This document shows positions 14,237-45,890 of a stretch of 64,000 nt of DNA, piece after piece. Every line of letters starts with the position of its first letter. The stretch's first letter is position 1. Location: contig NC_092583.1 of the NCBI RefSeq assembly GCF_037975245.1, positions 9,319,764 to 9,383,763 of the forward strand, given 5' to 3'. The notes beneath the pieces were generated by a model. It worked only from the letters and a program-made list of their open reading frames with translations, did no database searches and had not been told where the DNA came from. The translations under genes were made by a program, and so were the position numbers. Origin of the DNA: Apostichopus japonicus (taxonomy: Eukaryota > Echinodermata > Holothuroidea > Aspidochirotida > Stichopodidae).

Positions 14237-14262
14237 AGTTGGTCGTGGTAGTAATAGTAAAG

Positions 14263-19679: not shown

Positions 19680-20570
19680 TTATTCTAGGCACATTGTTGC
19701 TTGAACTACAGGATTTTTACTTCTGAATTCTCTGACGAGTTTTGCACATTGTTCATTCCCTTGTTCTGTTAGGGCATTTTCCAATTTTGTGATGTTTGTG
19801 GGAGATATCAGTGATTTTTGGGTCAGCTTCTCTAACAAAAAGGTTCCTGGTTTGTTGTGCTTCTTGATATCAGAGATTCCTTCTTCTGGAATATGGAAAA
19901 TAGTTGCCAGCAGGGTAGATTGGTCTACATCAAGAATTCCTGATACGTTCTGCTTTAGCTGATCAAAAGATTTGATGATGGCTGTGAGGTTGAAAGAAAA
20001 TGAAATTGTTAATATTGTATATAAATATTACTCTACATACAATAAATTCAGAAGAACCTGTTTCATGCAAACAATATTCAGAATTGTGAGACAACAGTGA
20101 TGTGTTTCCTACACACACTGACAAAATAAACCTTAAAGGCTCAGAGTTTTCAATGAAACCAAAATTTGAAATATGATTAACTCCAGAATATATATTTTGA
20201 AAGGGTGGCTGTATTTCATTTAGTTTTATTTTTCACTGCAGTGATACTTTATTACAGAATATATACCCAGTCTTTAAGTGTGTTGCTTTGGTGTCAAAAC
20301 TGTGGTTTTTTTCATATCAAATATTGCAAATAGCTGATAGTTGGTCCACCAGTTGACATGGCAACTGCAGCCCAGGACTCCTCTATGCAAAGTAGGATTA
20401 GGTTTACACATTTCATATGTAAAGATTGCAAACAAACATCAACACTATACATATGGTCTACAATTAATTAACAAACCTTTAAATGTTAATAATGTTTTTA
20501 ATTACTCACATTCAGGTAGGGCGAGCTGGAATGGAGATGTGATTTGGTCATTATGTAGTAATTTGTCAAT
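19680..20570 (-). CDS. Last two exons: 61-bp linker and fourth, C-terminal DED-like domain
   Basis: Exon 20570-20510 (61 bp, [20 protein letters not shown]) and exon 19981-19680. The latter encodes [42 protein letters not shown] and [11 protein letters not shown], ending MCLE then TAA. It has no internal ATG near its start and is easily missed as a separate frame. A death-fold at the extreme C-terminus is the usual place in UNC5 and PIDD. Confidence 0.78.
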
Positions 20571-23500
20571 CTGTGAAGACGAAATGAAAAGGAAAGCTTG
20601 ATGATTCTGCTAGAAAATTAGTTTGTGAATATCTCACCTGTATCAATTAACAGTGTGTATCAAAACGTGATTTAAGTGATAATGTTAAGATATGCTAAAA
20701 AGTACTAACTGTTTAGGATATTTTATATGTATTACATTTGTAATATGAAGAGAGATTGTCACAAGGCTTTATTTTTTGTAAAATTGTAACATTATATTTC
20801 AAATCGTATAATGGAAATTAGTTCATTAATTTAGGCAAACGAAGAAGAGATTTCAATAGAAATAGAAACATGACCTGAACTAGAGAATTAAAAAACAAAA
20901 CAAGTATAATACAAGGTAAGCATAAAATGAGTCTCATTAGATAAGATAAATCCAAAGTGAAACGTTAAGTTCCTTGTATTCATTCAACCAAATATCAAGT
21001 TACCTGTAACTGAATATTAAGCTGGAAAAGATTCTTCTCAGACATTCCATATCTTGCTTCTATTTCCAGATTAACAGTATCGTTGATCCCTTTATTCTGA
21101 AGATGGAATTCTACCTTGTGTCTGTTCTTTAACCATAGGGATTCCATAGCAACATCCTTTAAAAGAGAAATTAAGAGATGATTACTTATTCATCTATAAA
21201 CCTTTTGAGAGTCTTGAACATGATGGTCAACTTGTAAGGGCAATGGGCTTGCAATTGAGAGAATGCAGGTCCCAGTACTGGTCGATTGGAGTGCTACGAT
21301 ATTGCCTTGGGCAGGAAAATAACTTCAAGTGTCCGTTTTCATCCAGGTGAATACAATCACCCGATACTCATAGCTAGTACAGTAACTACTATTCATGTTC
21401 CACAACCGTGCATCAGTAACTACTGCACTGTGTTCGCAACACGGTAAAACATGTGTTACAGTTGGCACAGTAATTACTGGTAAGCTGTTACACGTTGAAC
21501 TACGAGTCCGACATTTGAAAATTTGCAGTAATTTAAGAAGAAAAAACATAAATGTTTATTTTTTTAAATTTTTTAAAACTTATAATTTTAAAAATTAAAT
21601 TTGAATTTTTGATATTTGCAGTAAGAACAAACTTGCAGTAATTACTGTGCCACCTGTAACACATGTTACCGTGCTACGAATACAACGCAGTAGTTACTGA
21701 TGCACGGTTGTGAAACATGAACAGTAGTTACTGTACTAGCTATGAGTATTGGCTGATAGATTGGAAAATGCAACGTTATTTGTAAATATAGCTGTGTCCT
21801 TGAATTTGACTATACCCATGTCCCCCAGTGGACAATACATGGTAAACTGAAGTACTATATGACCAACTAATGGAATTATGCATATTGAAATATATGAGCA
21901 TTGTAAAGTAATTTGACAAGGCTTTGGTATTCAGGAAAGACTATAAACTATCAACTTCATATTCTATTCAGCTCTTATAAGCTTGAACAGAATGATTATT
22001 TGTATAAGCAAAACAAATAAGACACCATAACAGTTACTCACATTACAAAGTACTTGTATAATCAATACATGGACATTCAATGAGGATGGAATGAAGGACT
22101 AGTCCAGAATGAAATCAACTGTGTAGACAACTGCAGCTGGGACCATCTCCCCCCTTTTCATTCATTGAAAATCATATGAATGACAGGAGACAAGTTTAAA
22201 ACTATATGTTTATTTGTATCAAAACATATGCTAACATCATATACTGTACGTGTCACGCAACAGATGCATATAACTATTCTTCCAGCAATGCAAATTACTA
22301 CCTGTGGAACAGGAAGTAGCTTCTTTCTTTACATGTTGCACACAAATAAATAAGTACATTTAACAAATATTACTAACCACTATTCTAGGATGTGGGTGAC
22401 ACTGTGATGTGCTGGAGTTAGTGCTAACATGTAAAGTTGAAGTCATAGATTCGAGTAGAAATGACACAGGATCATGAATTATGGTTCCCTTCTGCTGGTA
22501 GATTTCTTCATGGATAAGACTCTATTAATATAAAAAAGGAAACAATTGAATAGTACATTATTATTTATGTAATATTAACATAAATTCACACACTGCTTAG
22601 GTGTCCTATGTATGACATTTAACCAATAACTGCTCCTCGATATGACCCTCTCTGGGGTGGCCATTCTTCGATAAATAAGGGAGCTGTTATAAGTATTTAG
22701 TATGATGGAGTGTCTGATAGGATGCATTATCAAAGACTATTAATAGCCTGACAGCCTATGTTTTGAAATATAAATATTCGCTGTCTAGTCTTGGAAACCT
22801 CGTCAAGGTGTGTATACAAACTTGTTGTCAGTCAGTTGTCAATGACCACCAATAATATATTATTGAACATTCAGTTTTGTTATAGGACATCTGATCAATG
22901 TGTTTTTGATCACTGTAAAGTTCTAATTTTTAACAATTAGTGACCACAGACAGCCTTAACCAGCTTATCTCACTTGACCCTTACCTTAACTATATCATTA
23001 CAGTTATGAATGATATAAGAAAGGTTTGAGCCTATAGGGCATCAAGCTAGAACTTTATCATTTTCATCGCTAGTAGCTATGGTTAACCAACAACTCACTG
23101 GGTTAAAAATGTATAAACCCTGTACACTTCTGTGTATGACCCATGTGTCATTCAGAAAGGCAGACAGCTGGAATGCATGAGATAATTAACAATACCACTT
23201 AAGCTGATAAAATCTGCTACTTACTTCATGTTCCAGTGTATCATCATTATGAAACCAAAGATGTATTGTCAATTGATCACCCGAATCAGAAACTCTGTTA
23301 ACGATCGGTAAAATAGAAACACACTTCCTCATCTTAGGTATGAAATGGATATGAAGACCAATGAGAGAGGGTTGCTGAGCTTTAAACTGCAAGATGCTGG
23401 CTATTCATAGAGCAGCTGAAGTGTTTCCTATCTAAGCTCCATTTGACGGATTTATCTGAAGAAAAATTAAAAAACAGTTTGCTAGTGAGTGTTTATAAGA

Positions 23501-26500
23501 TGATGAAAGGTAGAACACCAATCCTAAACTATACCATAGATGACTTTAAAGGGACAGTCCGGTGGTAGAAAATGCAGCACTGCATATATAGTGCATCAAA
23601 ATAGCACAGTATCATGTTTTTAACTATAAGTATGGATGCAAAGTCACTAGATAAAACCCTGAAGTTTAACTTAGCTCGATGGGTATTATTTCCCTTTGTA
23701 AATGTTGCTAATTTTTCCCTAAAATGTGCAACATTTAAAATATTTGCTCTCAAGGTACAACTAAAAGGTTCCTTGATATGGAAATGATTTGTCTGAACCT
23801 TAGCTCCTTCTTAAGATATTGACTTTTACATTACACAGAACCAGAAAGCTTAATGATTATTGTTTCAGATGTCTATTGTGTTTGTTCTACTTAAATGGTT
23901 TCAGATGTCTATTGTGACTTTCCTTCTTGCTATACTTTAGCAGTTATGAAGGTTTTGAAAGTTATTAGACTTTGATACATATTGACCTCGATTGACCTTT
24001 TAAGCAGCGCAAAATACTTTAAAATTTTTTTACATGCCCCAGTGAATCCGAATAGTACATATCAAGTTCAAAAAACCTTTGTTGAATCATTGTGCTTACA
24101 AATGTTTCAGACTTTGACCTCAACAGAAAGGCATGGATTTGTATTCATTTAATATGGCACCACACTTCCAGTGTTAAATAACACCATAATGCACTTTTTG
24201 GCATATCTTGTCAAGAGATGGTACACAATAGCTCATATACATACTTCTGTTAATAAGACAAACGTTATTGACTATGCATAATGCTCAATGGAGTAGAAAA
24301 AAACACAACAAAACACAGAATAATGAAACAGACCTGTTTGTAAGACACCAGAGCACACGTCAATACCCATCTGGTTAGTTGTAGTGAAAGCACAGTGTGG
24401 AATAATCAAGGTGACAGGCTTGTGTAACGTAAGGCTTTCTGGACCAAATTTCACAAAGGGGGTCAACCTCAGACTCTTGTTTGAGAAAGGTCCTTTAATG
24501 GCAGGTTCAGTAGAAACCCACAGACTAACAATCCTTCCAGTGTGTAGTGCCCCAGCTGGTACACGCAGGCTAACACCTGCGATAAACATCTCTCCTCCAC
24601 GCTGATCAAAGTATTGTTCTTTATAAAGATTTGACCCTGGGAACAAAGGAAGTCTCTCTGTAGAAGAAAAGCAATATATTTCATGTGAAAGGAAAGTATT
24701 TTGCCACTATCATTAAACATCTGTTGATTACATATTCTGTTTCAATTCACATTATGAAAATAGCCTCTCTTACCCAACGCTGCTTCTATTGAATATTTGT
24801 CTAAAATAATGAAGAATCAAAACCATACTTGACTGTGGAAGAGTGAACATTAGACATGTTTGATGCGATTCATGGAAATAGATAAAGAAGATAATTTTTC
24901 ATTAACGGTAACAAGAATTAGGTTTATTTACCGCATCTAGAGTATATTTCTATTTTTCAGCTATTTTGTACGTAATATTCCTACAAAAATAAATAACAAA
25001 ATCCTTTTCCTTCCATGAACACTGAAACAGCCATGGGCATGAAATGTTGTCCTAGAATGTCATATAAGACTGAGGTTAAGTATATCAGGAAGACATAAAT
25101 AAGAAATACCCATGTAGCTGAATATATGGGTACTTTACCATGCTCTTCCTTAGCAAGCAGTAATATCCGTCTTCCCAAGTCCAGTTTTCCATGAGACAAT
25201 TTCAAGGCTCCTTGGACATCCAGTCTCTTGTATCCCTCTTCTATCAAAATTTTGAAATTTACTGACAATTGTGCTTCCCTTTTTGACATGACTACCTGTT
25301 TCTCTGGAAATTTCACCTGAAAAAATAATGTTGAAATATTAAAAAATGTTTATAAAATTCACATTTTTCATCATTAAAAAACTAATTACTGCTGTTGATT
25401 TGGTTAATACATTTCTGCACAGACTTCCTTAATTTGATCTATACAAACGTAACTTCATGTAAGCAGAAACTGTTACAATAAGTGAAAGGAAACATTTCAG
25501 ACAGACTTGCATGAGAGAAAAAAAGATACTTTTTATATCAGAAAGTACAGTCTGTAATAAGCCTTCTAACCTGCTAAGATCTTGATTTTATGCAAGAGTG
25601 ACATTTTGTTTTGCTTTCACGCCTTAAGTATTATGTCTTAACAAGTTTTTACTAAGCACATACTATTTTCTTATCATCTTTCACTCCTTCCTTTTCCTTT
25701 CCATTCTTCTTCTGTGACGTATCAATGTACTTCAGCACCTTTGTTGCCACCTTATTAAAGTGAATTGCTTTCAATCCTTTATACAGTCCAATCATTCTAT
25801 CTGGCATGATGAGCTCTCTTTCATCCAATATTTTCATCAGTATCTCTCCAGATTTTGCTGCTTCCTGAATTTTTTCTTTTTCTGCTGGTGTGAGCCCAAA
25901 GAACATGCCTAGCTGTTCACAATGTTGTTTATCCAGAAGCTCTGCAATCTCTCCTCTCAACTCTTCATATTTGTCTAAGTCTGAAGTGAGGACAACAACA
26001 TTCACATTACATTCAAATGAGAGAAAAGACTAGATTCGCATGTATAACTAAGAGTGCATGCCGTACTTGTGTGCCAGGTTTGAACAATAAATTTGTTAAT
26101 TATACTGTCCAAACCTTCCGTGCAACTTTTCAACTTTTAGCCCTCGTCTTGTACATAAATTCTAGTCTTGTTTACAGTTTCACCTTCAAAAGTGGCTTTG
26201 AGCTACAAAGTAGTTTTTGATTAAATGTTTACCAATAACCTTAATTGTTAAAAGTGACACTCAGGTGAGTCTACTTGTAAAACCAAATGGTATTACATTT
26301 TCACGTCTACTTAGACACTCACATGGGTCCATGTTCTGTTTGTTTGCTTACTTTTTCATCTCCACTAACACACGCTTGCCTGGTGCATGTCTAGGATAAT
26401 GAGCATTCATTTTAGTTTTTGTGCCAACTTCACTTTAGATGCAGGTCAGGGAGGACTTTTAAAACTACCTAAATCCAACCATTCGTTAAAATTCCACTTA

Positions 26501-29500
26501 AACACTTACCTAGATGTAGTTCTCTGAAAAGAATTTTCTGACTTTCGGGAGATAAGAGAATGTTTTTCACCTGAAGAAAAACACAAAATATATGACCGAT
26601 AAAAACGTTTAATGTATGAATTTTTACATACAATATTGCAGACTATCTATCACACCCCTGTGGATGATACGGTTTAAAGTAGAAACGTAATGTAGAAAAA
26701 TAGGGCTGAAACAGACATTGAACAACACATAATAAATGTGTGAAATTCCAAGGAAACGGATTATGTTTATGACAACCTATATCTATCACTTATGGAGTAT
26801 TTAATTGGTACCTAAGATACCCACAAAACAAAGTTTCCAGTAACTGTTGACCAGTGCATAGCATAAAACACTTGTGATATGTACTTTGTTTTCAGCATTT
26901 CACTGCATTTTGAGTTAAATATTGTTTACAAAGCAACACCAAAGACTCGGAAAACGGTATCAAAATAAGAAACCGAGGTACACCAGCGAGCGACTGAAAA
27001 AGATAATAATTGAATAACAGACTATTATAATTCAATTAAATTCAATTGTCGTCGACCATCAAGTTTACAAAGAAAATGATTCATGAGAGAACATGCCAAA
27101 GAATACTAGAATTCAGTCACAGCAATACATTATTCAGTGAGCCTTCAAAACAGTTGAAAGACTTCCAACAGACAGGACATTACTAAGCAAAGAAATGATC
27201 AGAAGAGAGAAGACGCTACTTAATATTACATAATGAAGAAACATATGAGAACCAAAACAGCTGGAAGACAATCAGCAGACACAACTCACATTTGCTTTCA
27301 GGATAAGGGCTGTCTGGTTCTTCTCATGTTGTGAAACTTTTAACTTCACATCAACCATAACAGTATGTCCATTGTTCTTTCTTTTAAGTCTGAACTGATG
27401 AGATACTCTACTGGCAGCGCAGAGGTGATCAATGTCTACATGCTAATGGATAAAAGATATTGGAGATTAATTATACTGAGGATGAGAATGCTTGATATGT
27501 ATTCAAAGAAACAATGCCACAAACATATAAAAGAATTATGGAAAAACTGGTCAGGAACCCCCAAGACATTTGGCCATGTAAAAAAATCCTTAGATTTCAT
27601 GGGCAGGTAATGAAGATTACACTCTATATTTTAATAAAGAATTCCATAACAACAGTCAGCTTTATTATGTCCAATGGGATAGAAACCCTTCAGAAATATA
27701 GTCGAGCCATGGATGTTCATGTGATTGTAGATGTATACCAGCTATGTCAATCCTTCTGTTTTCGATGAGTGTTCAAAGAATTACTAGGAGGGCATGTAAT
27801 TGTCTCACTCATTCCTGCTCACAGGACAGCCACCATATTAACATCCCACTCCAGCAAATGAGAGTTTGCCATATAATCTCAGCAATACTTTAAATACAAA
27901 GTGAGGTGAATTAAAGACATCCCAATTGATCATCACCATTGTGCAGTGAGTGAAGCTTTTTAGGAAACCATTTGAAACAGTATAGGACCGAACTTCACAA
28001 TTCATGAACCGATAATACCAACCCTCCAACCCAAAATTCTGCTCAACAACACTGCCCACAAGAAGTTCTGCATAGATTCTGGTCCCTGTTGGATTTTTTT
28101 TATAACCAGAAAGTAGTAGTTGTAGGGCCAAAATTCTAACCACTACAACATTTTGATCCACTTTATGTAACCAATCCTTAACTACAAGTCTTACATATAA
28201 TGTTAGGAGACAAATTTGAATAGCATTGGTGATTACAAACCTTCGTTGATTCTTCCTTAATCAGATGGTAACTATCACCGGGCGATGACATCATCAGATC
28301 AATGTAAGAAGCAGAATCTCTGCCGTCCTTCAATGTCCGGGTAACTTGAAATGTTGTATAGTTTCCTAGACTCAGTTTGGACTGGTAGTCCTTTAACAAC
28401 AACTAAAACATAAGAACATGGACAAGTTAATTAAAAAACAAACAGAGTCAATTATGCAATTCGTTGTGAGGCTTCACTATTCTTCATCAATACTGCTATA
28501 GCAAGTAACAGCAGCTTCTGTTCCCTTAAATGAATAAAATTACCAATTAATGTTGCTTGTTTCTATCTGATCCTCTTCCTTGTTGCAAATTAAACGCAAA
28601 TGTTTGCATTTCAAATGTAACATTGTTTTCCTTTTTTATGTGCTATTATGAATCAATAAATATGTCACACAAATGCACCCTTATCCAATCACTTCATAAT
28701 TTGCCAATACAACATGATAAAATTCATCTTACAAATCATGAAAGAAAGCAAGATTCCCAGTATCCGACTTATAGATCACAGTACAAAGCAGAATTCACCT
28801 CAAATTGCTACAGATATCACCATAGTAACAGGAAATTATCCCCACCTTGTAATCTTCATCACTGTCCTTACAGAAACAAACAGTTATTAAGACATCATCT
28901 TTGGTATCAAGTATCCCATCGATAAATGGAACAATACGGAATATATGCTTCTGTTCCGTTTCTTGGATGACTAAATTAACAAAGACGTAGCTCAGGATGT
29001 TAATATCAAGACTGATCTTCTCCGGGTCTAGCTTCGAATCAACAGACTTCTCTTCAGTCCAAGTGATTTCACCTATGATAAGTAATATTATACAAAATAT
29101 ATTACTTGGTAATCCTAAATACAGTAAATATCAAGCGATTATTAAGTAAGATATATTTTACCATACTGATTCTGAGTACTTAACTGATTTTACTTCTCTT
29201 GGTAAATTCATCAAATGCATTTAAAGTGCTCTTTGTTCACCATTTTTACCTTCTTGTAAAGTTTCTTCATCTTTCAGACCAGTGAAGATGATAACATCAT
29301 GTCGATCTGGCTCAGGGATAATAGCCGAGTGAGGAATAATCAGCTGGGCTGGCTTGTTGAGGGCCAGTCCTTCTGGCTCTAGTTTTATCAGGGGTGTCAT
29401 TCTGCCTCTACGAGCACTACCCGGGAGGTGTATGTCAGGAACATAGATCACTTTAACAGAAATTACATCTTCACATGATAAAGCGTCTTCAGGAATAGTC

Positions 29501-31111
29501 AGATGTACCCCCATGATGCTAATAGTTCCACCTTCACACTTTATCCTGTGTTCAATGTATGAGTGATTCTGCCTCATTTCAAGTATTTTGGAATGTTTTC
29601 TTTGTTTTGGTAGTTCTTCTCTCTCTGATCTCTCCATCACACATTCTTTACTACGGTCATGATATTCCTCTCTTTCTTCAGAACCTTGTGCTGGTGTCGA
29701 TTTGTCATCAGGGACAAATGTGTCATTTTCAGCTAAAAATAATATAATGGAAACACTGGTAACTGAAGCCTTGACATACAAAAAAAATTGCCATACTGGG
29801 CCTCGTGAATAAAACCTTCTTCAACAATACAATAGCCTTGCTACTGATTTATGAAAGAGGTATTATTGAAGGAATCATAATAAAAAAATTGTAATAGATA
29901 TGTTACACAAGCTTTACGTTGTTAGAGAATTTGACGAGTGGCAGCAGACAACATGAGTATCAAAAGAATCCAGCATGGTGTCTGAGGGTCACCAGATGGC
30001 TTAAATGGATCCTTGGCTAATCCTTGGGACCTAAACTAGGGATAATCTTTGTATTTTCAATCTTATTTACAATAAAGATATGAACCAAATGGCAACAAAT
30101 AATTGGTCCAAAGATCTACTTGATTCCTTTAACCTGACTTACACCGTGATAGTTAATACAGTAGTTTAAATCAACACATTGCCTGAAAGCTGAATATTAA
30201 CTCGTGACTAACACACATTTCTAGAGTTTTACTGTACTTTACTATTTTTGTTTATGTATTCTGATTGCATCCTTACATTTGTTCTTACCTGGCCAGTCAA
30301 GCAGTTGTGGTGATTGGTTTTCTTCAAACTGAAAGAGGTCAATTTTAGCCTGATATGGAGCTAATATGTATTTATTTGTTTGGTTTCGCTGAATATAAAC
30401 CAAACCCTTTTGTAGGTTAGTGACATCGTACATGTTGATGATGTTTCGTGTTTGCAGGAATTTAATTAGAGTGATTCCTGGTGTCTCATACTGAGAAACC
30501 CGGCGTAGCATATCAATTTCTGCTGGTGGTAGAACAAATAGAGTTGCTAATTTCAGAGTGCTGTCTAGAGTGAGATTGTCAGCAACATCGACCAATAATC
30601 TGCCGTAATCAGCTGAAACGTAAATAAAATGAAAAAAATAAAATGTAGTTAAAGATCACACTCAGCACAACAAACCAATTCATGAAACCGATTAATAAAT
30701 AATGGATAAGATTACATTTTCCTATTTATCATTTGATTATTAGATTGCTTTATATCGCATTAATATATTTACAACAAAATACATTTCTTTACCACAATGC
30801 AAAAATGCATAGTGGTTTTGATGATGTAGCATGAGCAGTTCTCTTCATGAATTTGAAATAATGTATAGTGAGGGTGTACAACAAACTTGATCTGAGTAAT
30901 ACAGTGAAAAGCAGTATGATGTGACAACAAAAAATTCACAATGACACAGGCTGTCCTGAAATGATCATTGACCTCAAAAATGTGGCTTCTTTTACTTAAT
31001 GAGATAGATATATATATATGAATATATATATATATGAATATATATATATATATGAATATATATATATATATATAGGCTTTTATTTTTTTAAATATTTCAC
31101 AAGAAATACAT

Positions 31112-31159
<48 letters not shown>

Positions 31160-34100: not shown

Positions 34101-37100
34101 TTTCTGAAAGTACATGTTGTATTTGTAAATGGTAAACTACAAATTCACTGTTACACCACTAGATCAAACAGAATGGTCATCTTGTTGATAGTAAATAAGT
34201 TTCTCATGACCCAAATTAGGTAACTTGGTCATCAGATATCTATAATCACATGATATGTGAAGTCTAACCCCTTTCTTTTGCTGAAGTAATTCTTCCTTCT
34301 CATCCTTCAATGTCTTCAGTTTGTTCTCAGCTGTAGTCAATGTATGCCTGAAGTCTTTGTCTGTTGCCTTCAATGCATCTTTGAATTGTTGTTTTTCCTC
34401 CTCTGTTGCCTTTAGTATTTCTAGCAGCTGTTGCCTCTCTTCCTCTGTTGCCTTCAACGTATCTTTCAATTGTTGTCTTTCCTCCTCTGCTGTCTTTAGT
34501 CTTTCAGACAGTTGTCTCTCCTCCCCGGTTGCCTTCAATGTATCTACCAATTGCAGTCTTTCCTCCTCTGTTTTCTTGAGTCTCCCAGTCAGCTGTTGTC
34601 TTTCCTCCTCTGTTGTCTTTAGTGTTCCTTTCAACTGTTGTCTTTCTCCCTCTGTTGCCTTTATTGTATCTTTCAATTGTTGTCTTTCAGCTGTTGCTTC
34701 AGCTAGTTTGTGATAGAGTTCCTGCCTTTCGTATTCTAATGCCTTTAGTTGATCCTTTAGTCCTTTTTTGGTAAACTTTGAATCTGAAACAAACATATAA
34801 GATGCAAACATATTTAAAGATTGTCTTCAACCCAAGAGATTTGGTTATGTAAATATACACAGTTCAATGTATTTGAATTATTTATGCTTCCAGGAAAATA
34901 TTGTGACAAACTTCCACGAAATGTAGTGAGCTCAAACTTTTAGTCCAACTTTAGCATGTTTTTTGAGGTGACACTGCAAATCTTTCACTTTCATTGGTTT
35001 TGATTTTGATCCTGCTTCTGAGCAAAGTCAAACCCCTTCAATGAACCTCCAATCTATCAAAGATATTAAATTAATAATTATCAATTTCAAAAGGAAAGGA
35101 AATTCCCAAATTTTACCAATCTTGTCTGAACATATCCCAAATCAAACTTTTGAGTATATCCCATTATAAGTTACAGACATATTCAATGATTTGACTGTAA
35201 TGTAAGACCGTGACATTGAATGAAACATGTAGTGTTGAAAAAATTACACTTGTTCTGTTATACACATACCTTGAGCATGTTGGTAGACAGTCAATACTGT
35301 CATCAATTTACTAAGTCCTTTGTCAGAGCATGCTGTCATTAAATAGTTTATGTCATAAGAAGAAACCTTCCCTGCCTCTCTGAGATGGTGGACAAGGGAT
35401 GAAAAAGGTGTATAACTCCCAATAATGTAATTTGATTCCTTGGCGGGAACTTTAAGGTAGGCAAGTAGCTTCTGACAGTCATCTTTCTCAATCAATGACT
35501 CTGAGCGCATCAGGAGGTTAGCAAAAGTAAATATGTCACTCTACAACAAAATGGGGAAAAAAATCAAATAAATATACTGGTGGTAGCAGGCCATAAAACA
35601 AAATAGAAGTAGAATTTTGAAATTTGAGAACATGTTGAGGACCAGGTGGCTGATATGAGCAAGAGTTGGTTTTTCATGCAGAACTCACAGAATCATCCTA
35701 ACTGTACTTATTAAGAATTTTAACAAAACCAAACAAACCCTTGATCTCTAATAACTTCGCACACAAAGGTTTCAAAGGAATCAACTTGTCATCGACAATT
35801 TAGATCGGGATATGGCCACGAAATTTCAAATAATCAACTTGAAAGAAACTGATACAGGTCACTGGAGGTCAACCAAAGGTCACCAAAATGCAGGTTGACT
35901 ATTGGATTACAATAGCATAACTCGCAACCTTGACAGAAATTTAAGTCTCAAGTTATTGCAAAAATACTAGTTTTTGACCCCTAATTGACCTTTGGTGACC
36001 TTGGATCATATGACTGTTATGATTGGAAACGATTCTTTACCCTATTAACAATCAACTATGTCGGACCCTGTCAGTGGGAGTTTCACATTGCACAAAAAAA
36101 AACATTTTGACCCCTAATTGACCTTTTGTGACCTTGGATCACATAACGGTTACTTTGGAAAACGTGCCCCTACTTCATTCACAACCTGTCCCAACTCCCA
36201 ATATATCAGCCATGTCAGACTTCGTGACTAGAAGTTGTTGCAAAAATTAGCATTAGTTGGCAGTTTTTTGCACATAAGCAACCTTGAATGACCTTGGATT
36301 ATAACCAATTTGTTTTATCAAAAATGTTCCCCTTGATGATGTGAAATCTGTCCTAAAATTGTATGTGCTCCAATGTACACACACACGATGTTATTGCTAA
36401 TAAGGTATCAAAACCAACCTTTGGCCCCTCTTAACTTGAGAACCTGGTGTCTGATTGAAGCGTGAGTTGGTTTTCTCTATAGAGCACAAAGAGCTCTATC
36501 ATGTATCAAAATATTGACGAACTTTTTGTTGTTTTGCCCTGTATCTCCTAAAATGAGCATATTTTTCAAGATTTGACCTTTGACCTTTTGACCTCACGGT
36601 CAGAGGTATTTTGACATGCTGATCCAAAGAACAACATGACAAGTCTGTACGACCATCCTAACTGTACTTATTATAAAATAAGAGCCCAAGGGCACTGTGG
36701 TTCCTTGCGTAGGAGTACTGTATATGACAATAAACATAATATTATCGATCATAGCAAGATTGGGCTCAAATAGTCCAAGTAATTGTGGTCCTTCATGTAC
36801 CCATAAAGTAACCAACACTATATCCAACACTTTTGTGATCACAAATTGTGATCGGAATTTTGATCGGAAGGCACTTTTGAGATCTGAATATGGCGCCGAA
36901 AATGTAAGAAATATAAGATCACCTACAAGCGGGTCAAGAGATAAGATAACATTGGTGACCTCAGATCACATGACCGTTAAGTTTGAAAATGTTCCACCAC
37001 CCCATTCACAACTTGTCCCAAAATATCAATCGTGTCAGACCTTGGCACTGGGAGTTATTGCATTAAATGTCTGAAAATTAACTTCGACCTTGTATTACTT

Positions 37101-40100: not shown

Positions 40101-42637
40101 ATGGAAATCATAGGCCATCCGTGAAATGAACCACTTGAATAGAACGTACAAAAAGACTGTCAACTGACTCGATGCAATCCCTAAAGAAAAGCCTGTAATT
40201 AGCTACAACAATTAGCTAAAGAAAAATGATTACCATGGCTGTGTGAATGTTGCAGTCTTTACTGTGTTGACAATGTGAAAATAGCACCACAAGGCCAAGG
40301 TCACATTTTCCCCTTCTATTTCTTCATTTTTGACTAATTTGCACCTAAATAAATTGCACTACATCCCAAAATAGAGGCAAGATTGGTCGCTAGCTCGATA
40401 AACTACTATTGTTTTTCTAGTGTCCTGTTTATACTATACCACTTTGTTCTTTGTTTTTATGTATAGACGAAATAAATGAAATGAAAATGAAATGAAATAT
40501 CATTTTATCAAGACTTAAATACTGTCATCAAATCAAGGTATGATCACTGTAGTATTTGCTATACATGTGCACTAGTGTCACTATGGCCTAAATTAGGATA
40601 AAATGTTGCCCTTATTTTGTCTTGAACTTTACCTCTTTTCAAGGAAAATTGCACCTGGTGTGTTCTTAACAATAGTTTGCATTGTTTTGTGCATTTTTGT
40701 TTTATTTAAGTGGACTTTGACTGTCAAAATTCATGATAAAGGAACTACACTGATTTGTCTGAGCTGTATGCCATGCAACATTCATCTCACATCACTTTTG
40801 ATAGAATTTTTAGCCTAGGTTTTCATTATATAGATATCATTGCCCAAAAAATAGCACTTATTGCGTTATTAATAATATTTAGCATTCACTAAATATAAAA
40901 TTTTGTAAAAAAATTAGCAGCTTGTAAGCTCAGAAAATAAGTAAAAATAATTTCCAAATTTTGGGTGTTGCTCTAATATTGCAAAGTGCAACAAGCACTG
41001 AATGGCCTAAATAACAGTTTGTACTTTTTCCACGTTGTACGTTTTCCACCATTTTGATTTCCCTCTGAACAAACAAGTAACAATTGTGTTCTAAATAAAA
41101 TTCCGCATTCACCTATACCAAATTTGTAAAAATTAGCAGCTTGTAAGCTCAGGAAATAAGAAAAACTATTTTCCAAATTTTGTGTGTTGCTCATTTATTG
41201 CAAAGGGCAACAAGCATCCAATGGCCTAAATTTCTTTATAAAATTTTGCACACACTTTTCCACCATTTTGATCTCCCTCTTAATAAACAAGTAACAGTTG
41301 TGTTCTTAATAAAATTCCACATTCACTTATACCAAACTTGTACAAATTAGCAGCTTGTAAGCTCAGAAAATAAGAAAAACTATTTTCCAAATTGTGTGTG
41401 TTGCTCAATTATTGCAAAGGGCAACAAGCATCCAATGGCCTAAATTTCTTTATAAAATTTTGCACTCACTTTTCCACCATTTTGATCTCCCTCTTAACAA
41501 ACAAGTAATACTTTTGTTCTTAATAAAATCCCGCATTCACCAGTAACAATTTTGTCTATATTTGAAGTAATGAAGACTGCGAAAATAAGGAAAACCAATT
41601 TTACTTGTACATTGACAGTACAAAACACTTCCATGACAACCTTACCAGAATCAGCAAAGCCAAAAAAAAAATGTCCTTATTTTTCTTTAAATTTTGCAAA
41701 GCAGATCTCAAAACATAAAAGAGTGTCTTCTCCTCACTTGTTCGCATAGAATGATACCCAATTTGTTGAGCTTCAATCAAAGGATTGCTTTAATAAAAGT
41801 GATAAATAGTCCTAATTTTTACCATAGGCCTATATATCCTGTATTAGTACTTACTGTGTGATATTCATATATTTCTCCAGTTCTCTCGGTAACCACAAAC
41901 AATCTGTTTATGTTATTATTGATCCTGATTCTCCATGAATCATCAGGAACATTAAAAGAAGCCAAGATATGACCCCCAGAGATGGAAGAATGACCCCCAG
42001 ATAGAGAGTAAACAACAACTTGTCTACTCCCATCACCTCCTCTCCATAATTTAAATATTAATCCTTTCTCTTCACTGACTGTTATACTCAGTGCATATCT
42101 GTACCGTGTGTTTGTATATTCCTGTTCTATTTCTCCCTCACTATTATACATTAAAGCTCTCCCATCGACTGTACAGATAAACAGTTTATTATTACTAACT
42201 GTTATATCATATGGCCAGTTAACTCCTTGTAATCCCTTTAAGGTGATTGTCTTCTTTTTTCTCAATTTTCTCGCATCTAAGACAATCACCTCATTGGATA
42301 TTACTAAACCGACATAGACTAACCCATCTCTGGTTGTCATACACCTGGCTTGACCGTTAAACTTCCCTTGCTTGATCAGACCGCCATTACTACTATCGTA
42401 CAATGCTATCTTATTCCTACAACACGTTAAAAACAGACGATCATCCAGTAAACAAACAAACCGCAATTCTGAACCAAACTCGGTAAATTCCTCAGAATAA
42501 TACGGCTCTGACGTCAGTAATGACGATCTTTCTTGAGAATCAGGATTTAATTTTAACATAAACAGATCAATAAAGCTGCATGTTGTCTTGAGATTATTTC
42601 CAGCCACAGCCAAACGGCCTGTATCTAGCACGTCCAT
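19680..42637 (-). CDS. Beta-propeller / DED / coiled-coil / tandem ZU5-UPA-DED scaffold protein, 1602 aa
   Basis: Nineteen coding exons with GT/AG ends and fully consistent phases: 42637-41855, 35540-35270, 34783-34269, 33360-33223, 32262-32178, 30612-30289, 29732-29250, 29072-28846, 28402-28241, 27394-27290, 26570-26510, 25980-25664, 25316-25139, 24657-24334, 23400-23225, 22521-22378, 21156-21004, 20570-20510, 19981-19680. They total 4809 bases, exactly 1603 codons. Domains: propeller 1-261, DED-like 265-350, coiled coil 353-565, DED-like 600-690, ZU5 770-862, UPA-like 867-1031, DED-like 1053-1135, UBA-like 1175-1212, ZU5 1217-1322, UPA-like 1325-1482, DED-like 1503-1590. ZU5-UPA-death-fold tails occur in UNC5, PIDD and ankyrins and act in apoptotic or immune signalling. 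No signal peptide or membrane helix is seen, so it is probably cytosolic. Function is inferred from domains only. Confidence 0.85.
21004..23400 (-). CDS. Three exons of the second UPA-like region
   Basis: Exons 23400-23225, 22521-22378 and 21156-21004 encode about 158 residues with beta-strand pattern ([46 protein letters not shown]). They mirror the first UPA-like region exon by exon and phase by phase. The first acceptor (ATGAATAG) is weak, but only it keeps the frame. I see no HFS- or HFPW-type autoprocessing motif like that of PIDD. Confidence 0.65.
21367..21746. mobile_element. Fold-back MITE with inverted repeats over 110 bp
   Basis: The left arm from 21367 (CTCATAGCTAGTACAGTAAC) and the right arm ending at 21746 are inverted copies at roughly 90% identity over at least 110 bases, around an A/T-rich centre. 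TA dinucleotides flank both ends (21365-21366, 21747-21748), as for Tc1/mariner-derived MITEs. It lies in an intron of the death-fold gene and has no coding capacity. Confidence 0.85.
24334..24657 (-). CDS. Exon with second ZU5 domain
   Basis: [40 protein letters not shown] and IIPHCAF give a textbook ZU5 core including the PHCA motif. Acceptor TTCTTCTACAG, donor GTCTGT. This is the better-conserved of the two ZU5 copies. Confidence 0.9.
25139..25316 (-). CDS. Exon with UBA-like helical domain
   Basis: 60 residues. The segment [18 protein letters not shown] and [13 protein letters not shown] fits a three-helix UBA pattern (EGY in loop 1, AL then a Gly-rich turn, IL at the end), similar in layout to the CBL UBA. 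If correct it suggests ubiquitin binding. It sits between the two ZU5-UPA-DED cassettes and has no counterpart after the second. Confidence 0.6.
25664..25980 (-). CDS. Exon with third DED-like domain
   Basis: About 105 residues: [49 protein letters not shown], then a Lys-rich tail. Six-helix death-fold pattern. Acceptor CACTTCAG, donor GTATGT. Confidence 0.72.
26510..26570 (-). CDS. 61-bp linker exon before third DED-like domain
   Basis: Encodes [20 protein letters not shown], phase 0 in and phase 1 out. The duplicate exon at 20570-20510 has exactly the same length and phases, so these are matched copies. It supplies the first helix of the following death-fold. Confidence 0.75.
27290..29072 (-). 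CDS. Three exons of the first UPA-like region
   Basis: Exons 29072-28846, 28402-28241 and 27394-27290 encode about 165 residues of alternating beta-strand character ([17 protein letters not shown], then [13 protein letters not shown], then VMVDVKLKV) between ZU5 and the death-fold. That is where UPA sits in UNC5, PIDD and ankyrins. Sequence similarity to known UPA is weak by eye, so the call rests on position, strand pattern and the parallel second copy. Confidence 0.65.
29250..29732 (-). CDS. Exon with first ZU5 domain
   Basis: About 65 charged linker residues are followed by a ZU5 beta-sandwich: [38 protein letters not shown] and IIPHSAI. These match the ZU5 core (GG, V-x-x-P-x-GA, L-x-P-x-V-x-x-GP, KP, PHCA). 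The exon is longer than its duplicate because of the linker. Confidence 0.85.
30289..30612 (-). CDS. Exon with second DED-like domain
   Basis: 108 residues: [48 protein letters not shown], then a basic and aromatic tail. The L-x-K-FLQ-x-R-x-I-I pattern is close to the death-effector helix 4-5 signature. Acceptor ACGTTTCAG, donor GTAAGA. Confidence 0.75.
31008..31215. repeat. (TA)n compound microsatellite
   Basis: TA-repeat blocks with GAATATA, ACATATA and CAAACATA interruptions at 31008-31074 and 31115-31212, in the intron between the linker exon and second DED exon. The open frames across it are artefacts. Confidence 0.93.
32178..32262 (-). CDS. Short acidic linker exon
   Basis: 85 bases between acceptor TTTATTTGCAG and donor GTAGGA. 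Encodes [17 protein letters not shown] and on to SSLA, a Ser/Glu-rich linker between coiled coil and second DED-like domain. Phases 0 and 1 match its neighbours. Confidence 0.7.
32400..33060. repeat. Dispersed repeat copy rich in TGACCT/TGACC words
   Basis: The intron between exons 4 and 5 holds TGACCTTTAATGACCCCCAA-type sequence, then GCACACCCACGCACACGCAC and CAAGCCAACTTGACTGC, ending in GTAACCAAAAAG. This is the same ending as the repeats at 37.98-38.82 kb (CCAACCTGACTACATA, GGAACCAAAAA), so it is a diverged member of that family. Confidence 0.6.
33223..33360 (-). CDS. Coiled-coil continuation exon
   Basis: 46 residues starting [16 protein letters not shown] and ending ALNQQEL, phase 0 at both ends (acceptor TTTACATTACAG, donor GTAATG). 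If the donor is not used, translation runs on for 47 more codons to a stop near 33079, which would give a truncated form without ZU5 domains. That extension has no recognisable domain. Confidence 0.75.
34269..34783 (-). CDS. Coiled-coil exon built from 14-residue repeats
   Basis: 171 residues, nearly all predicted coiled coil. Eight tandem 14-residue units (two heptads, 42 bp each) of the type [14 protein letters not shown] occur; one unit is a residue short, which would shift the heptad register. Highly charged. Likely an oligomerisation rod between the propeller/DED head and the ZU5 tail. An open antisense frame at 34321-34713 is a by-product of the repeats. Confidence 0.88.
35270..35540 (-). 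CDS. Exon with first DED-like domain
   Basis: About 90 residues, helical, beginning [11 protein letters not shown], with [29 protein letters not shown] and LTVYQ. The spacing fits the six-helix death-effector fold. It splices phase 0 to the propeller exon over a 6.3-kb intron filled with repeats, and phase 1 to the coiled coil. DED is preferred over DD or CARD; fold-level certainty is moderate. Confidence 0.72.
35640..38815. repeat. Cluster of about 0.6-kb dispersed repeats with AGGTCA/TGACCT motifs
   Basis: The large first intron contains at least five diverged copies of a unit with the landmarks ACTTCGCACACAAAGGT, ATTGACCTTTGGTGACC, TTCACAACTTGTCCCAAAAT and GGGAGTTATTGCA. Two right ends (37980-38210 and 38596-38815) are nearly identical and finish in CA-rich sequence plus AAGCAAGGAACCAAAAA. 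No coding capacity recognised. AGGTCA half-sites recur as direct repeats with spacings of 1, 4 and 5. Confidence 0.8.
39544..39647. repeat. Zero-spacer palindrome
   Basis: 39558-39633 is a perfect 76-bp palindrome centred on GGTACC (axis between 39595 and 39596). After one mismatch the arms pair for another 13 bases on each side. It is in an intron of the death-fold gene. Confidence 0.9.
40380..40500 (+). mobile_element. Possible LINE 3' tail fragment
   Basis: Ends in AAATGAAATGAAAATGAAATG, similar to the ATGAA-type tail of the LINE ending at 51085, preceded by T-rich sequence TTGTTCTTTGTTTTTATG. It is too short to classify securely. Confidence 0.4.
40896..41560. repeat. Tandem repeat, about 215-bp unit, three copies
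   Basis: The marker TTAGCAGCTTGTAAGCTCAG occurs at about 40915, 41134 and 41347. Each unit continues with TTCCAAATTTT, GTGTTGCTC, GGCAACAAGCA, AATGGCCTAAAT, CCACCATTTTGAT and AATAAAATTCC. A partial fourth unit ends near 41560. Confidence 0.88.
41855..42637 (-). CDS. Exon with N-terminal beta-propeller
   Basis: One exon encodes about 260 residues of four-stranded repeats of the form [24 protein letters not shown], the pattern of an NHL/WD40-like propeller with roughly six blades. The start ATG at 42637 is the first ATG in the inferred mRNA and has G at -3 and +4. The exon probably begins at 42692 after a CACACACAG acceptor. Donor GTAAGT follows Tyr-His-Thr, phase 0. Confidence 0.82.
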
Positions 42638-43600
42638 CACCGACACAATGTAGCTATCTTGCACAGTGAATCGTGGTATCGTTGTATGCTCTCTGTGTGT
42701 GTGTAAGGCAAAAAGTGAAAAGTTAGGTCAGGGTTGGACGGATGTATCCGTGGTAACGAAGGATTTAGAGTTGATTTTTAGATCGAAGGAATGTCGATGA
42801 ACAGCTCTCAGCCTGCGAAGTAGCTATATAGCCTAGGTCTTACAAACGGCACTAAATTCATTAAAAGCTGTTGATTTATGCATGGAACTACAAAGTCGTG
42901 ACCCACAATAGCACTAAATGTCTAGAGCAAATTAATCGACATGGTAATCTCGAAGATATAAGAAATGAGACGTTCAAGGCCTAATATAATAATAAGGATA
43001 CTACAACTTATGCTGTATTGGCCCCAAATATGCTAGATATTCAAATATGGTCACCTTTGGCCAAAATTCTTAAACTGATTTTATTACAACCTTCAAGGAC
43101 ATTTTCCTCACTGGGACATTCAGTCATCTTGTGTGTTCCTTAAAAATGTCTGAAAACAATTTGGATAATAGAGGCCTGCAGGAAAATATTTGTCGAAAAC
43201 TTCTAGCAATTATAGCGTTTCCCATTACGAACCCTCTCCCGCATAAAACGTGAAGAAATACATTTCCGCATGAATGTTAATATGGAGAGCGGAGTTAAAA
43301 GTGCTGGAAATTAGAAAATCGACCGAATAAAATACTTGCCTATTAAAGTATCCTATGAATAGTAAAATATTTGAAATTAATTACTGTGTGTTTATGAAAT
43401 ATTCCTTTCACAAAAGACGACGAAAGCGTGAGAAAATGTTTGAAATTGCGAGAAAATGTACGATGGTCAAAAGTGGAGATTTTCTTTAAAGAAATTTATA
43501 TTTTTTATCCAAAACAGGTATGTTGTACAATTTACCTATACTTCCCTACACTGGAGTGCTGTTTATAAAAATCAATAAATGTTTTACTTTACTTACAAGG

Positions 43601-43931
43601 ACAGACGTCTGTGTTGGACAGGTGCAGGTGAGGTACAGCTAATATTCTTCGAAAGGTCTTGAATGTAAACTTGTTCTTGATATAAATCGTTTTGTTTTTT
43701 TATGTTGAGTCGCTGACACGTCAACAAAGCGAAAAATGATAACACAGATTTCAAACAGAATGCCCGTTTAGATCACTTAAAATGCAACGAAATGCTATGA
43801 CTTTGATCAGAGAAGGAAACAAATTCTCAACTAAATATTAGGTAGTAAATGCTGAATTGTGGAGCACGAAAGAGAGTTGAATGATGAATAGTTAAATAGG
43901 AGGACAGACTTGATCTGAACTAGTATATATA
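43601..43931 (-). promoter_or_regulatory. TATA box and candidate noncoding first exon of the propeller/death-fold gene
   Basis: On the minus strand TATATA (43931-43926) precedes about 300 bases that contain no ATG at all and end at a strong donor (CTT then GTAAGT, donor at 43600). The acceptor at about 42693 then gives a 5' UTR whose first ATG is the propeller start. Absence of ATG over 300 bases is unusual by chance. Transcription start is expected near 43900. No RNA evidence is available here. Confidence 0.5.
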
Positions 43932-43949
43932 GCAAATGAATAAAATAAT

Positions 43950-45890
43950 AAATTACGCCCACTAACCCTTGACCTTTTAGATATAACCCATATCGCGTGA
44001 TGTTTGAGTCAATATTGAACTTAAAGCAGTCCGGTGAGATTTTCATGTTGGCTTAACTGATCCAATTTGAGTGTAATTTGAATGTTATTACGTACTCAAT
44101 AAAAACATCGAATTTCCAAAACTGAAATGAGAGAAGAGAGGAGGGAGGGGGGGGGGGTTCGTAAAGTCAATACAGGTGATCTGCCTGTCTACAGACCACA
44201 GACCCTACAGTCTACAGACCATCGAGATAATCACATAACCTGAGATACCCTCTCCCTCTCCCTCAATCTAACTTACATTGAGTAAGTGGGCCACTATTAT
44301 GTGTCTCTCTAACCAGTCCAACATATAAGTCTGGAAATGGCGAATACAGTTATAGCGTCTTTCATAAATTGCAGCCAATTTGTGTGGAAAACGGTCATGT
44401 AGTCTTCTCTAATACTAGCGGAATATTGAAAACTCTATGATTTGCCCGTTATTATTCAAAATAGAAACCTGGCAAAATAACTCAGTATATTGGACTATTG
44501 GGATAGGTGGGGGAGGGATTGTGGTTGGGGGATCCAGATGGGAGTAAATAGGGTGGATGAAAATATGTTCAAATTCGGTTCATCGTGTATGTCAGTGCAC
44601 ATGGATGTGAAGGATGCTGAACTTCCTGTATGAGCTACGTTCTTAAATGGGTCAGCCTTAATGTCCATTCCCATTGGAACACAATTCCGGCCTCTAAATA
44701 AAATTAACATGGTAAGCCCTGTTCAGGGTATACCGGTTTGTGGAGAAACCTTAAATATATTTATAGGCCTATATATAGTCTACTGCTTTAACATTTAACC
44801 TCAAAAGTTCCTAGACAATACTGAAATTATCTAGCACCTTTGACTAACCAACTATACTAAAGGTAGTTTCGTTTTAGCTCGAGCTCGTTGTTAAATCAAA
44901 CAATTCAAGTCAAACAGTCTGTCAAACAGTCTATGTACGTCACCAAGAATTCGATTTTGTATTCAAATGAAACTGTTTTTGTGTTAAAAGATCGTTATTG
45001 TTCCCACTTAAAGTAAATATTTGAGTAGTTGGGTAATGCTGATGATACTAAGCCTATAGGGGTTCAATGTTATTACATTCACACTGCTGTTCCAATGCAG
45101 CATGTTTAACAGAATACCATATACACATGGCACCGTTTATGGAAAGTTCACAACGAAGTCTCCTTATTCTGTATCTATAGCAAGGCCCGTTTCACGCTGC
45201 GCGTGTACAAATGAACGCATAGCGATAAATGTTAACAGTGACGTAGATTTCTTTTTGACATTGGGGGGGGGGCGGGCTGGGCGGGGGTTGGTGGTGGGGT
45301 TATCCACAGATTTTGAGATGAATGTGATCGCCAAACGATCGCCGGGGAAGAGTTTTGAAGGGAGGGGTGTCCTCCTCCCACCCGCCCCGGCCCCCTTCAG
45401 AAACTTGAGACAATCGAGATACTGATAATGAAAAATAGTGCAACTTGGAAATGATTTTTTGCACTTTTGACTCATATATACACACAACATGTTCATATTT
45501 GAGATATGAAAATGAAATAGCCAACTTAGTAACAATTCAACACAAAATTTAGCCTCTTCAGTCAATGTTTCAATGAGAGACCAAAGGTGTCTGTTATGGC
45601 CATCTAATTGGAGTGGAGCTTCTTAAGCAATGAAGCTAGGCTTCCGTTAATAGCCTACCAAATAATGTTTCCCCAAAGACATCGACGTATGACGTATGAT
45701 GTCTTTTTCAGTTCGAGAATAACGAATCAAAGTAGAGAATTTTAGGTTTTGTTTTGAAGAAGTATATGCTACTCAAGGAGATTTAGTTTCTTTGCGTGTG
45801 TAGACTAACTTGTTCGCCTCCACATTTTTTTTCAAATTCGGGTCTGGATTTTTTCCTGCTTCGCCAACCTGTGAATTTGAGATTGCTATG
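43950..45890. other. Gene-poor stretch with homopolymer and G/C-rich tracts
   Basis: Upstream flank of the propeller/death-fold gene. It has a G run near 44149-44157, CTACAGACC short repeats near 44190-44220 and a G-rich then C-rich pair at 45264-45400. Reading frames across 45100-45565 on both strands overlap the G/C-rich tract and have no recognisable domain. Confidence 0.5.

Follow-up and report, generated by a model that had tools for sequence, protein, structure and literature searches.

A tandemly expanded sea cucumber gene family with a hypervariable putative propeller and duplicated DED-ZU5-UPA-like units

The gene in the window

We analysed a 64,000-nucleotide stretch of Apostichopus japonicus DNA (the window). 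It contains a copy of a gene with 19 coding exons on the minus strand, running from 42692 to 19680 with GT-AG borders. The exon phases and nearby AG/GT borders were repeated in seven relatives from the same genome, in which 16 to 19 of the 19 exons were modelled (A, 17; B, 17; C, 16; D, 17; E, 19; F, 19; C11, 16); some of the exons not modelled fall outside the stretches read. The close copies A-C, E and F were insufficient by themselves to define exons because their introns are also alike, and the more divergent D and C11 were added. The shared splice borders persist in relatives down to 41% propeller identity, and copies E and F read through all 19 exons (1658 and 1665 residues without the 5' exon). 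Nineteen exons with agreeing splice sites had been proposed by an earlier sequence-only reading, and this part of its model holds. The features are as follows.

43597..44770, minus strand: region upstream of the propeller exon and shared with copy E (71% by blastn over 1321 columns), comprising the promoter and a probable first exon that ends in a donor near 43597
41855..42692, minus strand: propeller exon, probable six-bladed beta-propeller (weak profile matches, six blade anchors, bands)
35270..35540, minus strand: death-fold 1, DED-like
34269..34783, minus strand: coiled coil, first exon, with a variable number of repeats, each about 14 residues long (from the sequence)
33223..33360, minus strand: coiled coil, second exon (67-96% identity in the five relatives where it was found)
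32178..32262, minus strand: linker exon (modelled in 7 of 7 relatives, 50-82% identity)
30289..30612, minus strand: death-fold 2, DED-like
29250..29732, minus strand: ZU5 domain 1 (Pfam ZU5, 2.1e-7)
28846..29072, minus strand: UPA-like 1, exon a, with Leu-Ser at the FIIND/PIDD cleavage position (alignment with an UNC5-like protein of the same genome)
28241..28402, minus strand: UPA-like 1, exon b (conserved exon)
27290..27442, minus strand: UPA-like 1, exon c (conserved exon)
26510..26570, minus strand: 61-base exon closing unit 1 (equal in length to the exon closing unit 2)
25664..25980, minus strand: death-fold 3, DED by Pfam matches
25139..25316, minus strand: UBA-like exon
24334..24657, minus strand: ZU5 domain 2 (Pfam ZU5, 4.3e-13)
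23225..23455, minus strand: UPA-like 2, exon a (exon 15), with a 1-base insertion relative to seven relatives (DNA alignment, frame end)
22378..22521, minus strand: UPA-like 2, exon b (conserved exon)
21004..21156, minus strand: UPA-like 2, exon c (conserved exon)
20510..20570, minus strand: 61-base exon closing unit 2 (conserved exon)
19680..19981, minus strand: death-fold 4, DED-like, and the stop codon of the family frame

The window copy departs from its relatives in exon 15. With the acceptor common to the seven relatives, exon 15 (23455-23225) has one extra T that is absent from all seven, and the frame ends after 1382 residues, counted from the beginning of the propeller exon. Contrary to the earlier claim, the phases do not all agree. 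The frame stays open if a different acceptor, at 23400, is used, at the cost of about 18 residues encoded by the relatives. This variant comes to 1621 codons from the ATG at 42643, and the exact sum of 1603 codons given earlier was not reproduced. Three acceptors further upstream of 23400 also fit by length, but all lie beyond a stop, because the open frame begins at 23404.

Reading from the stop at 42728 to the point where conservation of the propeller exon begins, we found no ATG. Thus, an upstream exon is needed unless translation begins at the internal ATG at 42643. We think that start unlikely: the conserved TTIPRFTV strand would be lost, and the Met is conserved in only 18 of 23 copies. 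The frame of the conserved block at 43597..44770 likewise has no ATG in it. The copy in the window is possibly damaged or truncated.

The domain reading made from the letters alone was largely borne out: a predicted propeller, four DED-type folds, a coiled coil and two ZU5 domains were recovered, and UPA was not seen by Pfam. In profile searches exon by exon, both ZU5 domains were above the cut-off and the death folds matched DED below it. The Pfam beta-propeller match of the propeller exon was weak (0.004; 17 bits compared to a cut-off of 133), as were the PDB profile matches to WD40 proteins (best 0.016). Six blade motifs were recognised in the sequence, and we infer that this exon encodes a six-bladed beta-propeller.

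None of the four death folds reached the curated Pfam cut-off for DED, and DED-like is the safe label for them. Death-fold 3 was the firmest: all 6 copies searched matched Pfam DED (best 3.9e-4; the window copy had 21 bits compared to a cut-off of 35.9). Pfam DED was matched by death-fold 1 in 3 of 6 copies (best 0.004; CARD was also matched at 0.069 in one copy) and by death-fold 4 in 2 of 6 (best 0.0022). Death-fold 2 was the weakest in direct search (0.14 in 1 of 7 copies), and a PDB profile search with it gave only a chance match. Profiles of death-folds 2 and 4 matched that of death-fold 3 (92% probability and 91%, respectively).

In A, B, E and F the first coiled-coil exon was modelled at lengths from 144 to 179 residues; no intact version was found in copies D and C11. 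The UBA-like exon had a profile match to the CBL UBA domain (E 0.0032). Up to E 5 this search listed 12 rows, of which 6 were CBL or CBL-B and the others unrelated; Pfam scans of 7 copies gave no match. The sequence-only reading had missed this exon, as well as the internal duplication and the gene family described below.

Duplicated ZU5-UPA-like units and their cleavage position

In the body of the protein, a DED-ZU5-UPA-like unit is duplicated in tandem (unit similarity, E 5.9e-20), with the UBA-like exon between the two copies. ZU5 domains 1 and 2 scored 31.6 and 49.8 bits compared to a Pfam cut-off of 21, and the match was found in 4 of 4 and 3 of 3 spliced sequences. The nearest solved ZU5 structures were those of UNC5B and ZO-1. 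Pfam UPA (PF17217) was not matched in the spliced sequences, and SH3BP4 UPA was matched at 0.25 in one of four. The profile match to the UNC5-like protein spans the ZU5 region only, and the UPA stretch can be aligned by position; the label UPA-like comes from position and alignment, not from Pfam.

The order ZU5, UPA-like, death fold is that of PIDD and FIIND proteins. It is conceivable that the protein is a sensor of this kind, which cuts itself after each ZU5 and frees a C-terminal DED fragment once the sensor is destroyed. All 6 rows of unit 1 had Ser at the cleavage position, and single-unit relatives had NFSW in 3 of the 4 loci read, including the NACHT-type gene of L029/L030. In contrast, the Phe was replaced by Leu in unit 1, unit 2 had Pro-Cys or Ser-Cys in 5 of 5 rows, and no HF/S or SF/S site was found at the right place in the window family. 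A change of the Phe in CARD8, F296H, is described as severely defective in the available part of one report (PMC3210808). We regard self-cleavage of the window family as unlikely.

The family, its NACHT-bearing relatives and propeller variation

The window gene belongs to a large family that has expanded in tandem. We found 56 related propeller loci across five chromosomes, a subset of 130 genome match rows. The 74 rows omitted were matches on C12, C7 and C6, second pieces of split exons, and C11:7437719. The landmarks were complete and in the same order in 42 of the 56 loci, and in those 42 all were on one strand. Landmark rows kept were 52 of 54 for DED1, 52 of 61 for ZU5a (some of these 61 genome matches are to ZU5 domain 2), 48 of 63 for ZU5b (15 of the 63 are to other ZU5s) and 55 of 74 for the last DED, and some rows kept are fragments or hold stops, such that a counted locus is not necessarily an intact gene. 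Rows omitted were second pieces, cross-matches and weak fragments. An internal stop was listed in 7 of the 56 propeller rows and none in the other 49.

A sister group lies in tandem arrays on C12. Its propellers are homologous to that of the window copy, mostly with 39-49% identity, and the order propeller-NACHT-ZU5-UPA was found at at least 30 of 52 loci; these counts are lower bounds, since scoring covered 106 of 488 NACHT candidates and 150 of 204 ZU5 candidates, and one row (C12:22958888) was left out of the order count. The gene read there had the order propeller-DED-DED-NACHT-ZU5-UPA, with DED-like exons and an exon at the UPA position. When a C12 copy was put through the exon modelling, only four exons were modelled and the second DED-ZU5-UPA unit matched poorly, and it was thus recognised as a gene of another type. 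Since the sister genes carry a NACHT ATPase, the relatives of the window family are NLRs. The window family differs from them in having a coiled coil instead of NACHT and a duplicated DED-ZU5-UPA unit, whereas the C12 gene read had a single ZU5 and NFSW. Pfam scans found no NACHT in window-family exons, and none was listed on C23 among the 106 of 488 candidates scored genome-wide.

Apaf-1 consists of a CARD, an NB-ARC and WD40 propellers. The earlier comparison to Apaf-1 without its NB-ARC was apt in spirit, in that the sister group carries NACHT. The likeness does not extend to the window family in detail: no NB-ARC was listed, the death folds are DED-like rather than CARD, and there is one putative propeller, at the N terminus.

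We compared variation within the propeller among copies. Of the 32 hypervariable residues, 27 fell within two bands in each blade, corresponding to its D-A and B-C loops, although the bands cover only 78 of the 279 positions placed relative to blade anchors. None of 20,000 shifts of the pattern reached the observed value (p 5e-5). The A-B turn, on the other side of the blade, was conserved, with a mean entropy of 0.19 compared to 1.15 and 1.29 in the bands. Blade 2 hardly shows the pattern (0.57 compared to 0.37 in the held-out comparison). If the fold is as predicted, the two variable loop bands of each blade should lie on one face of the propeller.

In set 1, pN/pS was 1.35 in the bands (95% range, 1.06-1.72) and 0.56 elsewhere in the propeller. 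Set 1 was 20 copies picked among those without stops, and thus says nothing on decay. In set 2, with 19 disjoint copies, the values were 1.55 (1.19-2.02) and 0.62, and with held-out blades they were 1.51 and 0.62. These values come from simple counting that does not model recombination, within bands delimited after set 1 had been seen. Synonymous change in the bands was not below that elsewhere. In the body, pN/pS was 0.37 for ZU5b, 0.39 for DED4 and 0.62 for DED1 (ZU5b and DED1 were each taken from 19 of the 20 set 1 loci); ZU5b and the last DED are conserved. Filters removed one of 20 set 2 copies (L121, out of frame) and two of 20 last-DED copies (L095 and L096). A site test gave positive selection at 8 of 321 sites (p below 0.1, uncorrected) and purifying selection at 21. 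The selection tests used propellers from outside C12. The window-family propeller thus has a trait of NLRs, a putative sensor with a diversified surface.

These patterns could also arise by relaxed constraint and gene conversion between recent copies, with expansion by drift and many copies decaying. The stops in 7 propeller rows, the out-of-frame L121, the frameshift in the window copy and the excess of purifying over positive sites fit with such an account. But pN/pS in the bands exceeded 1 in both disjoint sets, and neither 95% range includes 1; synonymous change was no lower there; the turns on the opposite side of the blades were conserved; and most propeller rows list no internal stop. 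We consider relaxed constraint quite improbable.

A predicted receptor repertoire

We found no description of the window-family architecture in the open-licence papers searched. Several known systems share parts of it. UNC5, a membrane receptor, and the UNC5-like L001 of the same genome share the order ZU5-UPA-death fold, but have a Death domain and a single unit. PIDD1 has a single UPA, and differs from the window family in its LRRs in place of a propeller, its Death domain and its HF/S sites. It shares sensor repeats, more than one ZU5 domain, UPA and a death fold, as far as the accessible portion of PMC3210808 describes it. NLRP1 and CARD8, whose FIIND is ZU5-UPA, are cytosolic immune sensors with ZU5-UPA followed by a death fold (available parts of PMC3210808 and PMC11760013), but have a CARD rather than a DED, no propeller, a single unit and an SF/S cleavage motif.

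Lineage-specific expansions of DED-TRADD-N-WD40 genes, with FIIND and UPA-ZU5 fusions, are reported for amphioxus and other marine invertebrates in the available part of PMC8195603. Like the window family, these combine DED and a variable beta-propeller in expanded families; in amphioxus the propeller is C-terminal rather than N-terminal, and that part of the report does not describe a doubled ZU5 unit. General Pfam scans listed no TRADD-N in the window family. In the fungal HNWD genes (het-d, het-e and het-r), diversifying selection acts on the interaction surface of the propeller, at four positions per repeat (PMC4986451, available part). These are STAND proteins with highly alike, shuffling repeats, whereas the blades of the window family differ and no NTPase was found.

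Based on these results we infer, with a probability of roughly 0.7, that the family encodes germline-diversified intracellular recognition receptors, similar to NLRs but without NACHT. Family size, one-sided hypervariability, pN/pS above 1 and NACHT-bearing relatives give indirect support for an immune role, which the sequence-only reading had guessed. Its proposal of a signalling hub understates what is present: the gene is one of dozens of parallel copies, which fit a receptor repertoire better than a single scaffold.

It is possible that the variable face is used in allorecognition, telling individuals apart, with death-fold signalling ending incompatible contacts. Sea cucumbers are solitary and not known for colony fusion, which argues against this, although our measurements do not separate it from pathogen sensing. 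The closest functional parallel is fungal HNWD, with diversification on one face of a propeller and control of self and non-self (PMC2873952 and PMC4986451, available parts). We judge allorecognition very improbable. That the exon model fuses two neighbouring genes, one propeller-DED-coiled coil and the other DED-ZU5-UPA, is scarcely credible: the model comes from genomic sequence and an in-frame start for the C-terminal part is possible, but in E and F the splice phases run through every exon, ordered landmarks on one strand are kept at 42 of 56 loci, and the NACHT-type relatives likewise span propeller to ZU5; the single gene proposed earlier probably stands.

If the family does encode a receptor repertoire, a mechanism can be proposed. 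Before activation, the ZU5-UPA units would hold the DEDs closed, as ZU5 does in FIIND proteins; autoinhibition is mediated by the ZU5 of CARD8 and of rat NLRP1 in the available text of PMC11760013. The variable loops would form one face that binds varied non-self or altered-self proteins, and binding, together with coiled-coil clustering, would detach the ZU5-UPA units from the DEDs next to them. The freed DEDs could then assemble with DED adaptors or caspases, and so set off cell death or NF-kB signalling, with a possible link to ubiquitin through the UBA-like exon. The NACHT-free form would rely on its duplicated ZU5-UPA clamps and coiled coil, and the sister group on its ATPase.

More tentatively, and at somewhat less than even odds, the genome may have about a hundred germline loci with a selected, hypervariable propeller face in two versions, one with the NACHT ATPase and one with a duplicated DED-ZU5-UPA clamp and a coiled coil. 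If true, this would be an animal intracellular repertoire built on beta-propellers, not on leucine-rich repeats or immunoglobulin domains, and the window family would be an ATP-free offshoot of the NLR design. In echinoderms, innate receptor families based on LRRs and scavenger domains are known to be very large. If our reading holds, the propeller would be a second recognition fold diversified likewise in an animal. Selection at about 12 loops would then outline its binding face and give ligand searches a concrete target. Clades with and without NACHT would share sensor and output and differ in the switch, making the contribution of the NLR ATPase testable.

Gene structure and domains

The window is C23:9319764-9383763, and we found that its gene has 19 coding exons on the minus strand, from 42692 to 19680. 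The GT-AG borders of the nineteen exons, proposed in the sequence-only reading, hold in the window copy, and its relatives can be modelled with the same phases; the total of 1603 codons proposed with them was not reproduced. In seven relatives from the same genome (A-F, and one on contig C11), exons were modelled where the phases were as in the window copy and AG/GT borders lay close to the aligned ends. This gave 17 exons in A, B and D, 16 in C and C11, and all 19 in E and F, where they join through. Some unmodelled exons lie beyond the fetched stretches; others, the variable coiled-coil exon (D and C11) and exon CC2 (B and D), gave no model.

In order, the exons encode a predicted propeller, DED-like 1, a two-exon coiled coil, a linker, DED-like 2 and the first ZU5, then come three exons in UPA position and one of 61 bases. 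DED-like 3, a UBA-like exon and a second ZU5 are next, again with three UPA-position exons and a 61-base exon, and DED-like 4 is last. Homology between the two ZU5-to-DED units extends over most of both (E = 5.9e-20, 361 columns), and the body of the gene is therefore the product of an internal duplication.

Other features in and near the gene, and an UNC5-like gene used for comparison, are:

10193-10828, minus strand: protein kinase frame of 211 residues (Pfam Pkinase, 1.6e-20), downstream of the window gene
13757-14879: repeated unit, open on both strands, with recurring FGLADLFSISVSRTF-like motifs
30769-31215: a long stretch of TA-rich simple repeat within the intron ahead of death-fold 2, a source of spurious frames
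37845-38837: block in the first large intron, with several matches in introns of A, C and F among the matches listed
45970-50663, plus strand: reverse transcriptase frame (Pfam RVT_1, 2.6e-26 at 49558-50100), directly upstream of the window gene
L001:742-2874 (contig C15, near 2416967): UNC5-like protein, an open frame of 711 residues with ZU5, UPA and Death above the Pfam cut-offs

The frames around 45970-50663 look like a non-LTR retrotransposon, and the intronic block is probably a dispersed repeat. The UNC5-like frame also contains a hydrophobic stretch.

The ZU5 assignment is firm. DED-like 3 deserves its label, as Pfam DED matched it in all six copies, with scores below the family's cut-off; profile comparison with DED-like 3 (92% and 91%) extends the label to DED-like 2 and 4. 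DED-like 1 was matched by Pfam DED in three of six copies and has weak kinship to DED-like 3 (18%). The UPA label is given by position and alignment: Pfam UPA had no match in the family's UPA-position exons, and it recognised the UPA of the UNC5-like gene (5.1e-14). The UBA-like exon matched the CBL UBA domain (E = 0.0032) and none of the Pfam models.

Exon 15 of the window copy has one T more than all seven aligned relatives. With the shared exon 15 acceptor, the frame stops after 1382 residues, counted from the beginning of the propeller exon, and most of the second UPA-like part as well as the last DED lie beyond this stop. The extra T reflects either a real truncation or an assembly error, or it is bypassed through an alternative acceptor at 23400. 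At the 5' end, the candidate first exon is a stretch that is conserved in copy E and runs up to a donor near 43597; no ATG was found in its frame.

A large family and its NACHT-bearing relatives

A genome search with the propeller exon gave 130 matches with E no higher than 1e-5. On C11, C15, C16, C19 and C23, 42 of 56 loci have DED-like 1, the two ZU5s and the final DED following in order on the same strand; this is a count of landmark matches, partly in fragments, and need not mean 42 intact genes. Six of the remaining 14 loci lacked only the second ZU5 match, one lacked a same-strand DED-like 1, two had the first one or two landmarks only, and five had none. No internal stop was listed in 49 of the 56 propeller rows.

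An array of NLR genes on contig C12 is a sister group of the window gene. One of its members (L029:1059 to L030:9689; C12:29335058-29353689) has a propeller, two DED-like exons, a frame of 735 residues with NACHT (1.7e-18), ZU5 (3.4e-15) and a UPA-position exon; Pfam matched neither DED-like stretch nor the UPA-position exon. Propeller, NACHT, ZU5 and UPA occurred in order at at least 30 of 52 C12 propeller loci. Four others lacked only a ZU5 match and twelve only a NACHT match; the NACHT match was last in one, NACHT stood alone in two, and three had none. These counts are minima because NACHT was scored in 106 of 488 candidates.

Many NACHT matches were also seen on C7, C16 and genome-wide, in open frames mostly of 510-570 residues (106 scored of 488 candidates); they are seemingly of other types. 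Four propeller loci without double-unit landmarks (C11:7515025, C11:11069058, C15:25273925 and C19:5215246) have single ZU5 and UPA-type matches downstream, and C19:5215246 has a NACHT match as well. It is possible that these are NACHT-type genes outside C12.

Variation on one predicted side of the propeller

We compared the propeller exon in 23 copies (window, E, F and 20 picked for absence of stops). Over the whole exon pN/pS was 0.87; elsewhere in the gene it was 0.37 in ZU5b, the second ZU5 (22 copies), 0.39 in the last DED (19) and 0.62 in DED-like 1 (20). The six blades were aligned on the second strand, with anchors chosen by eye. Of the 32 residues with at least five states, 27 fell inside a pair of bands present in each blade, one 15 to 9 residues ahead of the anchor and the other 5 to 10 past it. 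The bands make up 78 of the 279 positions, and the pattern was as strong in none of 20,000 shifts (p = 5e-5); it is weakest in blade 2. By alignment, the bands coincide with the predicted D-A and B-C loops, and in a propeller these loops share one side. The A-B turn belongs to the opposite side and is conserved, with a mean entropy of 0.19 versus 1.15 and 1.29.

In these 23 copies pN/pS was 1.35 in the bands (95% range over codons 1.06-1.72) versus 0.56 outside, counted without a recombination model. The band limits had been fixed after viewing this set, and therefore we tested 19 further copies, which gave 1.55 (1.19-2.02) versus 0.62. With offsets learnt on other blades and other copies, the values were 1.51 and 0.62. 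Per-site variability in the two sets was correlated (0.85). A simple per-site count gave a contrary result: 8 of 321 sites were positive and 21 negative at p<0.1, uncorrected.

Precedents and a possible mechanism

Single ingredients of this family have precedents. PMC8195603 describes expanded DED families with variable propellers in amphioxus, like the window family in both respects, and related adaptors fused with ZU5/FIIND in marine invertebrates. Fungal HNWD genes show selection on the propeller surface (PMC4986451), as the bands suggest here. Expanded genes named NLR CARD-containing were reported from A. japonicus in an earlier genome paper, as cited in PMC13228809. The combination of a doubled DED-ZU5-UPA unit, a UBA-like exon, an N-terminal propeller of six blades with probable selection on one side and NACHT-bearing sisters was not found in the open-licence literature searched.

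PIDD self-cleaves after its ZU5; in contrast, the cleavage position deviates in both units of the window family. Unit 1 has Leu-Ser there in all six rows, and all five rows of unit 2 have either Pro-Cys or Ser-Cys. The UNC5-like gene has HFT instead, and of the four single-unit ZU5 loci examined three have NFSW, among them the C12 gene in its UPA-position exon. Because of these differences, PIDD-like self-cleavage seems doubtful.

ZU5-mediated autoinhibition is described for CARD8 and rat NLRP1 (PMC11760013), and an interface between ZU5 and death domain for UNC5B (PMC3210808). In the window family, the variable propeller loops may bind ligands and the coiled coil may cluster the receptors. 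Before binding or clustering, the ZU5-UPA units would keep the adjoining DEDs closed; once released, the DEDs would give a death or NF-kB signal.
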